Positions 57,489 to 63,694 of a stretch of 64,000 nucleotides of DNA are shown here, one piece after another; positions within the stretch are counted from its first letter, which is position 1; every line of letters starts with the position of its first letter. Location of the stretch: positions 1 to 64,000 of the forward strand of contig JAHLKC010000034.1 in assembly GCA_025449115.1 (NCBI GenBank). The letters are read 5' to 3'. The translations under genes were made by a program, and so were the position numbers. Source of the DNA: Chytridium lagenaria (taxonomy: Eukaryota; Chytridiomycota; Chytridiomycetes; Chytridiales; Chytridiaceae). The notes under the pieces were generated by a model, which saw only the letters and a program-made list of their open reading frames with translations, had not been told where the DNA came from and did not search any database.

Positions 57489-60400
57489 ATGCTAGGCTCC
57501 TCAGACACATCTGCAGCCGTCATCGAGCCTTCATCCGTTACGGACATACAGCCAACCGCCATCGGATCTGGGGGATCCTCTGAAGTGTTCAGGGCGAGGT
57601 AAGCACCTCTTTCTTCTGTTGTTACGCCTGCAGTGTGGGGGAACCGAAAGGATGCTCAGCTTGGATGGAGGCAAAGTCTTGTCGTGCAGAAAGACCATGT
57701 GAATGGGCCGTGTGAATAACTTACAAAACTAACCTGGATGATGGAAACTAGGTATGATGGCGATCCCGTGGTAATTAAGCGGATGAAGTATTCTGTTGGC
57801 GTTGGGGATTATGTCATCCAAGCCTTCAAGAAGGAAGCGGCCATCTTCGCAAGGCTCAACCATGCCAGAATCGTTCGTTTCTTTGGAGTTATCACTGAGC
57901 AAGGTTGCATATCGCTTATCTTAGAGGTGGGAAGCCTTTGCGTTGTTATAATGTGGTGCTTATTTGTTAAAAGGATATGAGCCATGGCAGTCTTCTTGAC
58001 TTTTACAAAGCGCAACCCGAGGCATCTGTGCAAGACCGGGTTCAATGGGCGCTAGACATTGCTTTTGGAATGCAATACCTCCACACAAGAACTCCCCCCA
58101 TCATCCATCGAGATTTGAAATCACCAAACGTCTTGATGGCTTTAGAAGGTAACGGGTCTCTTCGCGCGAAGGTCACGGATTTTGGATCTGCGGTATTACA
58201 GTTAGCAACAGCAACGCGTATGCACTCGAAGCAACCTACATTGGCAGGCACAACACTATTCTGGCGAGCACCGGAGCTTAGCGGTTTCCGTTTAAAGGTA
58301 CTTATTTTTACATTCTTATCGCGGCCCAATCTCTTTTAATGTGGCCAACATAGTCAATCTCACACCTTTTGTCAACCTTTTCAAATCAGTTTAATACAGC
58401 CACCGACGTTTTCGCGTACGGCGTCATTCTTACAGAGCTCGTTAGCTGGCAAGGACCTTTCGGATGCCCCTTGGACGAAATCAATGTCTCATACTTTGAA
58501 GCGTGTCAGAAGGAAGGAAAATCAATTGAACCTGATCTTGACGATTGCGATGTCCCCGATGCGTTAAAAGACATAGTATTGAAATGCATCGTGGCTTCAC
58601 CGCCCCGTCCATCGTTTCCTGAAATTATCCAGCAATTGATGGCGATTTCTGGAGTGAAGCTAAAGCAAGAGTCGAACGGCATTTCCGATGCTCCGGTCAA
58701 GACGGCTCGGTATGAAAAGCAGCTACCTGATCGCATAAACACGTCGCGCAGTACGTACTCTTTACGTTATTTTATAGTTTTAGTTCACTAATCGTAGTGT
58801 CACTCCTCCAGCTTTGCGGCAAGATTCTAGTGAAAAATCCGTTTCCAGTGGATCCGTAGAGACAGTCCAATTCAATGTGGCTGAAACACAGGTGCCTTCA
58901 AGGAGTAAGTTTCCTTTTGATTTCTGATAGGTGTGTGCACCATTGTAACCTTTTTTTACAAAGAGATCAGTCGAGCCATCAGAAAAGATACTACGCTGGT
59001 CAGTGAAGATGTACCAGCGTTCGTTCAGGTCGATGAAAGTATACAAAAATTTGAGGCTGTTGATGGAGATGCACAAGCAAGGTGAGCTAAATACACTCTA
59101 TATATGAAGGGAAATTTGAGAAGACTACACTTCGTTTGAATGACTCGTTAGTGACTTATATCGTAACTAGATTGGGTATATCTCTGTTGACTGGAGACGG
59201 TGTCGACAAGAATTATCAGCAAGCAGTAAAATGTTTTATGAAGGGAGCAAGAGCGGGAAATGCTACGGCGCAACTAAAGTAAGTAGGATATGTAGTTCTC
59301 TATTTAAGCAAATTAACATCGTCTCATGCTAATTTAAAAACACTAGTCTTGCTGATTGCTTGCATTATGGAATTGGCGTGGGGCCCAATTTAACTGAAGC
59401 TGTGGAATGGTATAGGAAAGCAGCCGAACAAGACAATGCAGCTGCACAGAGCGGGTAAGTCAAATATCAAAGAAGTTTAGTTATTCATTTCATTCGAATT
59501 TCTTCATGTTGCTAAAATATAACCCACGTTTTTGCTATTTGAAAAACAGTCTAGGGTATTGCTTGTTTGATGGGATGGCATAGAGAAGGATACTGAGGAA
59601 GCGTTTGAATGGTTTAGGAAGGCTGCGGATCAGGGTAACGCTGCTGCTCAAACTAGGTGGGTGTTGATACCATTGTGATAACGTTATAATGCACTTCATT
59701 TTCTCCGAATTAATCATATGCCACTTTTTTTCATTGATGTAGCCTCGGTATTTGCTTGCTGGAGGGAATCGGCACGGATACCAACACTGTGGAAGCGTTG
59801 AAGTGGATTCGGAAGGGGGCGGATCGTGGCCATGTGATCGCACAACTTACGTTAGTGGAGATAAATACTTTGGTTTTTGGTTTTCGTGTTTTGTTTTATA
59901 TTGAGCCTGCCATACTTACAGTACTCACTTTTACCTATAGCTTAGGGTATTGCTCTCAAGAAGGAATCGGTATGGAATGGAACTACCAGGAAGCGTTTCG
60001 ATGGTATAAGAAGGCAGCCATGGAGGGCAATCCATGTGCACAGTACAAGTGCGTGAACCATCTTAGTCTTGTCCCGATATGATTATTTCCTTCAGTGGTA
60101 TTTAAAAATCATTAACCAAAAAACGATACTAGGCTTGGTGAATGTTATCAAAACGGATACGGTGTGGGTAAAAATGCCAAGGAAGCCGTTGAATGGTACC
60201 AAAAAGCGGCGGATGTAGGCAATGCGGATGCACAATACAAGTTTGTGACGCGGTGTGTTTTGTAAATTCTAAATAGACTAGACTGGGTGAATGTTTTATG
60301 GATGGAATCGGTACACAAAAGAATCAGCAAGAAGCTCTCAAGTGGTTTGAGCTAGCGGCGGATCAAAACCATGAGTTGGCACTATTAAAGTAAGTTTATC

Positions 60401-60958
60401 ATATTCCCACTTATGTTTTCGTATGATCCTCTAAATATTTAAAGGGCTCCAAAAAGCGCTGTAGCTGGCGATGATAAGTACGTATTTTCATATAGTCATC
60501 TTTTCCTTTTTTTCTAAGCTAATATATTTCACTTTTAGCGATTTATCCAAAATTGACGAGGAATTCGTCAGACATAGAGCCAAGATGATCAAGCTGGAGC
60601 AAGAAATGACGGATGTGTTTCAGCAAAAGGTTAAGGAGAAGGAGGCCAAGCTTAAACAAGCTGAGGACGAAGTAAGTGCATTTTTAATCCCTCCGTATGT
60701 CTGACTTATTTTGCATAGCTCTACTCTCGTCACCGCGATATGAAGAATACCCTTGACAGTACATTTAGTGAACTCGAGGAGAAGAAGAGCAAGTTACTCG
60801 AACAAGCAAGTGCTTCTACAACAAAGTCAAGCCGAAGCGAGGTCTTTTTATCAAGTGAAAAAGCATTCATTATTATCGTTTCTTTTACACTGTACTTTTC
60901 TTTTCAACGTTTGTCCATGTCCTCGAATTTTCCTCCGTCTTTTCTTGTATAGCCCTGA
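57489..60958 (+). CDS. TKL-type protein kinase with seven Sel1 repeats and a septin-type coiled-coil tail
   Basis: Start at 57489: MLGSSDTSAAVIEPSSVTDI. The kinase domain has a Gly loop (AIGSGGSSEVFRAR), VVIKRMK (ATP-binding Lys), IHRDLKSPNVLM (catalytic HRD), VTDFGSAVL (DFG), FWRAPEL (APE) and DVFAYGVILTELVSWQGPFG. This places it in the tyrosine-kinase-like group, and it looks active. A Ser/Val-rich linker leads to seven Sel1 repeats (first LGISLLTGDGVDKNYQQAVK; last LGECFMDGIGTQKNQQEALK), which form an alpha-solenoid for protein binding. The C-terminus (KIDEEFVRHRAKMIKLEQEM; FQQKVKEKEAKLKQAEDE; LYSRHRDMKNTLDSTFSELE) matches the C-terminal coiled coil of septins. Every junction from kinase to tail splices in frame. 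A G must be added at 59577 to keep repeat 3 open. The stop chosen at 60956-60958 follows a final short exon. Confidence 0.92.
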
Positions 60959-61424: not shown

Positions 61425-63694
61425 TCATTCCACCCCAGGGTTATTCAACGCCAGCCCATCCTTCCCCATGGTATCCTCCCTATACCACATCCCAAACCCC
61501 CTCGCCATCCACTCCAACACCCTATTCTCATATTTCCTTCCGTTCTGATGAAACACGCAAATACCCCTCCCACCACCAACCTCCTCCTCCGTCTCAACAG
61601 CTCCCCCAGGTCCCAACGCCCTTTCAATACGATCCCACAACCCCTTCTCCCCCTGATTCACAACCCCAAAATCCTTCAACGAAGGCTGTGTCTCGTACAT
61701 CCTCAACGACTTCCTACCCATCTCACTCATCTCCATATCCACAGACCAAACTGCAAAAAGTGCCGACGTCATATGATTCTCAAAATCCAAATCAATAAAC
61801 GGTCTTCTGACTCCCTCCAAAGCTCCATTCGCGTCTAAAACACTCTCATCTACCTCCCTATCCACCTTATCCATCTCAACAACAAAACCCCTCAACCTCC
61901 TCCTCGCTTTCTCAACCTCCTCAACCCTCCTCTCAACGTCGACCCCAAACGTACCCCCGCGTTTCGACCATAAAATCAATTCCTTCTCAAGCTCATCCAC
62001 CGCCATCTCAACCTCCACCTCCGCCTTCTCCATCGCCTCAATAACCTTTCTAGCACTCTCCTTCCGAACTTTTACACCACCCCCCAAAAACAATTCAGCG
62101 AAGCGAGCTTGATCATCCCCACATTCATTAATGTAAGCTTCCCCTAAAAACGCCCTGGCATCCAAAGCTCGACCAACAAGCGTCCCTGCATTCAAATACC
62201 GGAACGTTGTTGACTGTTTAGGGTCCTGGGAGAACCCATGTCTCCCATGCGGGAACTCAAAAGGATATTCAAATGGGTACTTCGTATATTCATAAAGGCC
62301 TCGAGTATAAGACTGGATCCTTCGTACAGTCTTCCTTGGATCCCGTCCACCTTCAGGAATATGAACGAATTTTGACGAGTTTTTGATATCATCTTCATAA
62401 ATACTTTTCCACTGCCAGATAGGCCACACCATGCGTTCAGCCGAAAAGAGAATCGGTGATGCGGCACGTGGACGATCCATAAATCGCTTAGCGATCGTTG
62501 CTGGATCACAGGACGGACTTGCGAGAACGTCATCACCGTCCGTGAAAATCATTACGCGACTTCGAGCTTTCGACCGAAGGTACTCTGGTGATCGACGTAT
62601 CACTTCCAGATCATCCTTCTTGTACGTAGTGGATGACTGGGATAGGTGTCGCGATGGCTTCCGTCACGCTCACCAGGTAGTCATGATACGCCCTGATCCG
62701 TTGACCCCACCCTCTCCACCCCTCCTCATTCCTAAGATCGTCAGCGGGATTCCAGCGTCCCTCAAATTCTTGCAAGTCGGTTGATCCCGTTATTGCAATT
62801 CGTCGCGTAAATGACCCACTCAACGTTGGGGATACATTTCGTCGACGAGTTGGGAAACTTCAACGTCCCATCTGCGAATTCCAATTCAGCTCCATCCCCA
62901 GGATCACAAATACGTCCCCCTTGCTCTCGCAAAAACCTGTCGGCATAAATGCCTCCCCTGGGTTTCGGCGGCCAAGTGCGTTCATTGGCTATGACAGCTT
63001 CCAAGACCTCATCGCTGCATTTGGCTTTATGAATGATACGATTCCCCACAACGGTACCCATCAAGAAGCGGAGTTGATGTGTGTAGCAGCTCATACTTGA
63101 GAAAGGGTTTGGGATGGTGAGATGGTGGATGGTGGGTGCACGGAATCCTGTTGGTCCGCCTTCACGGATGAGGAGCATGTAAAGAGTCAAGAGGATAGCG
63201 TAACCAGTAAACAGGACAACAGCGACAGCGAGGATACGGAAAAAATGCAACACTAGGGTTTGGGGACGACAGTCGCGACGACGGGGTTTTGAGGAATTAG
63301 GAAGGGGTAGGAAAGTGGATGAAGCTGTTCCAGTGACGCCCATACTGCCCAACGTTTCAAACTGAAGAGGATCCCTCTCCGACGTTTGCTGCGACGAGTG
63401 GAGAAGAAAAGGCTGGTGAACCCCCCACGATTACGACGCCGTTCAGGGAACGCATGAGCGCTGTTCATAGCGTCCGATCTTTCACTCAAAGGCATCCATC
63501 ATCGTCATCAGAGCTAAAGTCGTCATCGTCGTCATCTTCGTTGCGTTGTTTGTGGACGTCTCCATCTTGGACCCTTGGTCAACGTCCGAATGGCCCGCCA
63601 GTGGTGCAGATGATGGAGAGGATTGAGAGGGATCGAAGGAGTTGGATGCTGCAGGATGAGAAGAAGTATTTTGCGTCAATGACGATGGGAGCAT
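61425..63694 (-). CDS. PLOD-like type II membrane glycosyltransferase
   Basis: Resembles the glycosyltransferase domain of procollagen lysyl hydroxylases (PLOD). The reading frame with GSMGVTGTASSTFLPLPNSS and KPRRRDC is followed by a signal anchor (VLHFFRILAVAVVLFTGYAI). The lumenal part has NVEWVIYATNCNNGINRL, DAGIPLTILG, GWGQRIRAYHDYLVSVTEA, ARSRVMIFTDGDDVLASPS (DxD-type metal site), ASPILFSAERMVWPIWQW, TFRYLNAGTLVGRALDARA and NECGDDQARFAELFLGGG. RPFIDLDFENHMTSALFAVW and CVFHQNGRK follow, with the stop at 61425. No hydroxylase domain follows. An insert of about 75 charged residues (ESARKVIEAMEKAEVEVEMA) is unusual. Frames slip near 62600, 62735 and 62770. The start is unclear: a Ser-rich frame begins at 63694, another at 63495 (MPLSERSDAMNSAHAFPERR), and MGSMG is at 63352. 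Confidence 0.72.

Follow-up and report, generated by a model that had tools for sequence, protein, structure and literature searches.

The C-terminal tails of the yeast septins Cdc3 and Cdc12 form a heterodimeric coiled coil, as do those of SEPT7 and SEPT6, and deletion of the Cdc3/Cdc12 tails abolishes loosely paired filaments, according to passages of PMC8640212. The same passages report that SEPT6 and SEPT7 tails also homodimerise, that antiparallel pairs are known for septin tails, and that the SEPT6/SEPT7 heterodimer is more stable than the homodimers. Cdc3 and AspB are placed among the Group 2A septins and Cdc12 in Group 4 (excerpt of PMC6323724). On the kinase side, comparable systems include the yeast septin-associated Nim1-type kinases (Gin4, Hsl1 and Kcc4), which are marked by a KA1 domain at the C-terminus; Hsl1 uses an evolved septin-binding sequence of its own together with a KA1 domain (excerpt of PMC5088441). 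Among the titles and abstracts listed in literature searches, none describes a septin tail on a kinase or a Sel1 protein, and in passages of PMC11974727, on chytrid cellularization, septins are confined to the reference list.

Within the window (the whole 64,000-nucleotide stretch of Chytridium lagenaria contig C34 that we analysed), we modelled a 16-exon gene on the + strand at 57489-60858, with 15 introns and GT-AG at every modelled junction. The predicted product, presumably translated from one mRNA, would combine a kinase, a Sel1 scaffold and a septin C-terminal coiled coil, with the following features:

57489-57598, 57752-57926, 57974-58297 and 58390-58750, + strand: exons 1-4, putative TKL-type protein kinase domain
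58812-58904 and 58964-59081, + strand: exons 5-6, linker with no Pfam match among the families listed
59171-60389, + strand: exons 7-13, seven Sel1 repeats, one per exon
59171-59278, 59347-59454, 59743-59850, 59941-60048, 60133-60240 and 60282-60389, + strand: the six Sel1 exons of 108 nt, phase 2-2
59550-59656, + strand: exon 9 (Sel1), 107 nt, with a frame break
60391-60393, + strand: TAA, in frame when the exon 13 donor is unused; this end reads LALLK-stop
60445-60477, + strand: exon 14, 33 nt, phase 2-2, optional
60539-60671, + strand: exon 15 (133 nt), the opening exon of the septin tail
60719-60858, + strand: exon 16, second septin tail exon, to the septin-like C-terminus and its TGA, 140 nt, with a frame break inside
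60719-60952, + strand: exon 16 when the carried frame is followed in the assembled sequence, passing the septin-like end and reaching TAG at 60950-60952

We ran a Pfam domain search on the translation without exon 9, which listed nine families and supports the kinase and Sel1 assignments. The kinase domain matched PF07714 (E=4e-37, 128.4 bits against a cut-off of 23.1) and PF00069 (E=7e-35), and the translation of exons 1-4 contains a complete set of kinase motifs: the glycine-rich loop GSGGSSEVF, VIK, HRDLKSPN, DFG and APE. Assignment to the TKL group is based on the PF07714 match and is to that extent provisional. Sel1 repeats matched PF08238 (E=6.4e-62) in six stretches without exon 9, giving seven Sel1 exons when exon 9 is counted. 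A sequence-only reading of this DNA had proposed a TKL kinase with seven Sel1 repeats and no septin GTPase domain nearby, and both points hold, with one of the seven Sel1 exons broken: PF00735, the septin GTPase family, is absent from the encoded protein in the Pfam search of its translation, and of the 32 septin-GTPase matches listed genome-wide, none is on contig C34. The nine listed families likewise include no KA1 domain, which sets the protein apart from the Nim1-type kinases. The likeness to Hsl1 and Gin4 would lie in being a kinase that acts at septin structures; where Hsl1 uses its own evolved binding sequence, the window protein would use a septin's own tail.

The tail encoded by exons 15 and 16 is recognisably that of a septin. 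In a search of the PDB, the best nine of 15 matches were septins, with SEPT7 first (5.1e-11) and the best non-septin at E=0.22. On a profile built from 66 fungal septin tails, with this genome's own genes left out, the tail scored 86.6 bits, against maxima of 24.7 bits in 5000 heptad-preserving shuffles and 15.7 bits in 5000 plain shuffles. Septins are thus far ahead of generic coiled coils by PDB ranking and by profile score against shuffles, which rules out a chance coiled coil and upholds the septin-type coiled coil proposed from the letters alone. Searches of Pfam and NCBIfam with the tail returned nothing informative (DUF7615 at 19.1 bits against a cut-off of 27, the rest weaker); these libraries cannot decide the identity of the tail, because the genuine septin tail on contig C13 also scores just weak non-septin matches there. 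Within the genome, the tail matched only two other genes, the septins on C13 and C66, with identity at 33/57 and 37/57 positions, respectively. The label Cdc3/AspB-type, as used here, reflects which proteins the tail matches: SEPT7 and others that carry the name Cdc3 or AspB.

Gene structure extends the resemblance beyond the protein. The window gene, C13 and C66 agree in the introns that flank the tail exon: the one in front is phase 2 and divides an Asn codon into AA/C, and the one behind is phase 0 and lies at the same junction between Glu or Asp and Leu (E/L in exon 15 of the window gene). The tail exon measures 133 nt in the window, 133 nt in C13 and 134 nt in C66, whose gene has numerous frame breaks, and the last exon runs 140 nt to the stop in the window versus 141 nt in both C13 and C66. 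The C-terminal ends read KVKPKRGLFIK-stop in the window (read across the frame break), KAKPKPGFFQK-stop in C13 and KPKPKGTFFNK-stop in C66, and in DNA alignment the septin-like end of exon 16 gave p=0.008 versus C66 and p=0.18 versus C13. Exon 14 gave p=0.012 versus C13, at a place out of line with the tail, and p=0.056 versus C66, and intron 14 showed no similarity to the two septin genes (p=0.87 and 0.48). Because intron positions and phases, exon lengths and the C-terminus are shared, the tail reflects homology with septin genes and is not a look-alike coiled coil; as judged from this comparison, the window contains the terminal 3′ part of a septin gene of the Cdc3/AspB type, more than a coiled coil alone. 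The earlier idea of a borrowed septin tail thereby gains backing beyond its original basis. Compared with Group 2A septins (Cdc3, AspB) and SEPT7, the window protein shares the coiled coil, the exon length, two intron positions with their phases and the C-terminal end, but it lacks both the septin GTPase domain and the septin unique element, and it carries the tail behind Sel1 repeats.

These features suggest that a TKL-kinase/Sel1 gene acquired the terminal 3′ part of a septin gene of the Cdc3/AspB type. The captured cassette would begin with the phase-2 intron, continue with the two exons that encode the coiled coil and the intron that separates them, and finish with the septin C-terminus. 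Since the Sel1 exons are phase 2-2 and the cassette opens with a phase-2 intron, the reading frame passes unbroken from the last Sel1 exon into the cassette: a single frame covers exons 13-15 and the first part of exon 16 with exon 14 in or out, and direct splicing of exon 13 to exon 15 also preserves it. Exon 13 ends at a canonical donor, GTAAGT, and introns 13-15 (55, 61 and 47 nt) are GT-AG introns with branch-like CTNA motifs. The balance of the evidence tips slightly towards a septin 3′ end acquired in this way by phase-2 exon capture, transcribed as one with the kinase-Sel1 gene, and supplying a tail that would dock the kinase on septin filaments. So read, the gene would be a clean example of phase-matched exon shuffling, and both source-type genes remain in the genome.

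Selection on the tail was examined against its septin relatives. Over 57 codons, the tail differs from that of C13 with dS 1.28 and dN 0.34 and from that of C66 with dS 0.92 and dN 0.25. C13, C66 and a Dinochytrium septin have the same residue in 46 columns; the window departs from it in 15 of these, and only four of the 15 fall in the 28 septin-invariant columns (defined over 62 distinct septin tails plus SEPT7) against 9.1 expected (p=0.0014). Conservation relative to the septin consensus gave p=0.0008 for the most conserved columns, p=0.04 at a cut-off of 0.9 and p=0.07 at 0.8, in a sample in which one of 121 proteins fell outside the tail pattern, and the window tail keeps 13 of 14 hydrophobic columns. 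With distances split over three branches, dN/dS on the window branch is about 0.5, a value that rests on few sites, is not clearly below 1 and allows relaxed constraint; the exon 16 part alone gave 0.53 versus C66.

To place the gene among its relatives, we compared the whole protein and the tail separately. Phlyctochytrium planicorne proteins P0003, P0008, P0011, P0024, P0036 and P0051 share an N-terminal kinase of the same subtype and a Sel1 array with the window protein (41% identity over 81% of the query for P0003) but have no septin tail, and the same is true of all 120 listed relatives of the whole protein. Chytridium lagenaria P0071 on C49 has the genome's closest kinase domain (54% over the kinase part) and differs in having neither a Sel1 match listed on C49 nor a septin tail. 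Its public model omits the stretch before DLKS, where HRD is expected, through an extra intron near residue 121 in the alignment, possibly as an annotation workaround. A search of the tail region among 185 candidate proteins of 408-1298 residues gave one match, a septin, and a search with four tail variants gave 335 proteins, with PF00735 in every one of the 120 listed. The same architecture is therefore absent from related chytrids among the matches listed and, since no listed relative carries a septin tail, the fusion may be restricted to this species or close kin, as judged on annotated genomes.

This distribution bears on a competing account in which the tail exons are a duplicated septin fragment lying downstream of the kinase gene, normally outside its protein, and the kinase ends at the TAA at 60391-60393. 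That stop is reached in frame when splicing does not use the exon 13 donor and is a possible alternative end of a tail-less kinase, Phlyctochytrium P0008 ends right behind its last Sel1 repeat, and no listed relative has the fusion. Against it, the tail exons have kept their splice sites, continue the frame of exon 13 and show septin-like constraint at a dS of about 1; exon 13 has a canonical donor, and the matches listed for C34 include no septin core or promoter-bearing septin remnant beside the tail. We regard a fragment outside the protein as rather unlikely.

The assembled sequence contains two frame breaks. One frame runs through exons 1-8, and exons 10-15 share theirs with the first part of exon 16. 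Exon 9 is one base short (107 versus 108 nt); the frame carried through it hits TAG at 59581, and omitting exon 9 preserves the frame. In exon 16, the septin-like C-terminus NKVKPKRGLFIK, ending at TGA 60856-60858, is in a different frame from LYSRHRDMKN, which continues to the TAG at 60950, and the last 12 codons, the septin-like end, are thus read in a shifted frame. In-frame splicing through clean GT-AG junctions, as first proposed, accordingly stands for the junctions, all 15 of which are GT-AG, and fails for the frame, which breaks in exons 9 and 16. The gene had also been drawn to 60958; as the septin-like frame stops at the TGA ending at 60858, that end probably includes about 100 bases of 3′ UTR.

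If the breaks are real, the gene could be a once-living fusion that is now a pseudogene, with the TAG in exon 9 and the shifted C-terminus in exon 16 as its marks. To calibrate break frequency, we matched one septin protein to ten loci of this family, using an aligner that tolerates frame shifts; the guide is divergent, which makes the counts upper bounds. Breaks per matched codons were 4/394 for the Cdc3-type C13, 11/385 for C66, 1/337 for C19, 0/392 for C28, 2/347 for C9, 3/370 for C3, 5/394 for C327, 8/366 for C41, 1/405 for C163 and 2/382 for C91, summing to 37 breaks in 3772 codons, compared with two in about 780 codons of the window gene. By this upper-bound standard the two breaks are well within assembly noise. 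One Cdc12-like septin occurs with near-identical translations on C28, C327 and C41 with 0, 5 and 8 breaks, on duplicated, error-rich contigs, which shows that frame breaks can enter this assembly while the gene itself keeps its function. Because the assembly is error-rich, assembly error is likelier than decay as the source of the two breaks; kinase exons 1-8 are also open, and a pseudogene appears improbable. A DNA search of the genome returned no second copy of the gene, matching only paralogue pieces (C49), the tail of the C66 septin and, on C156, a stretch of 78 bases. The last of these repeats window positions 59596-59673 (part of exon 9 and the beginning of intron 9) at C156:69026-69103 with 77/78 bases identical and without the rest of the gene; it does not extend across the exon 9 break and would be a small recent copy or a filler insertion.

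The captured tail points to a plausible pairing, by analogy with known septin tails, with a Cdc12-type septin. A candidate partner is the septin on C28, which has a C-terminal coiled coil and whose best PDB match is Cdc12 (317.7 bits), with a small lead over the SEPT7-type match that follows (305.0 bits). If the window tail replaced the Cdc3 tail beside such a septin, it would set the kinase on septin filaments while the Sel1 repeats would hold other partners. We offer, as possible but short of probable, the fuller proposal that exon capture made a kinase septin-associated in one step, with the Cdc3-type tail pairing with a Cdc12-type subunit and laying the Sel1 scaffold and TKL kinase along filaments, perhaps in zoospore formation. 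Were this true, a septin's own assembly part would be a natural transferable address tag. An expressed fusion would be a natural case of a septin C-terminal coiled coil moved onto an enzyme and a route to a septin-bound kinase unlike the yeast ones, and would make the sufficiency of a Cdc3-type tail for placing a protein at septin filaments directly testable.

The fusion protein might instead be made and its tail have another role, dimerising the kinase or pairing with itself in antiparallel, or competing with Cdc3 for Cdc12 and dampening septin assembly, with no docking on filaments. The homodimers and antiparallel pairs described for septin tails in passages of PMC8640212 fit such an outcome, as does the lack of a septin GTPase domain to place the tail inside a filament, but the greater stability of the SEPT6/SEPT7 heterodimer reported there speaks against it, and we consider it quite improbable. 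A misassembly that wrongly joined a kinase gene to the terminal part of a third septin gene is barely credible: the assembly is fragmented (356 contigs) and error-rich, yet the window has no N run, the tail is distinct from those of C13 and C66 at the identities given above, the gene's DNA has no second copy, no tail-less Cdc3-type core is found among C13, C66, C91, C19, C28, C9, C3, C327, C41 and C163 (weak matches C23, C37 and C158 left out), and a third septin is not indicated because only C13 and C66 share the tail type, each with its own septin core.

Several further observations concern this genome and its septin relatives. Contigs C56 (53000-61500) and C101 (35500-43500) each have a kinase and Sel1 gene in a shared stretch of about 8.1 kb that is 95.7% identical, and are probably two haplotypes kept apart. 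Six of the 120 listed proteins from the search with four tail variants (P0122, P0130, P0144, P0161, P0180 and P0237, one named nuclear import receptor) are long Cdc3-type septin models with PF24138/PF24140/PF08389, and four (P0128, P0131, P0137 and P0140) are long Cdc3-type septin models joined to WD40-type domains; these models represent either conserved neighbours merged in gene models or real fusions. The neighbouring gene that comes next downstream of the kinase-Sel1 gene, on the - strand at window positions 61425-62663, is a 412-aa open frame matching a PLOD glycosyltransferase domain (PF25342, E=1.9e-10).
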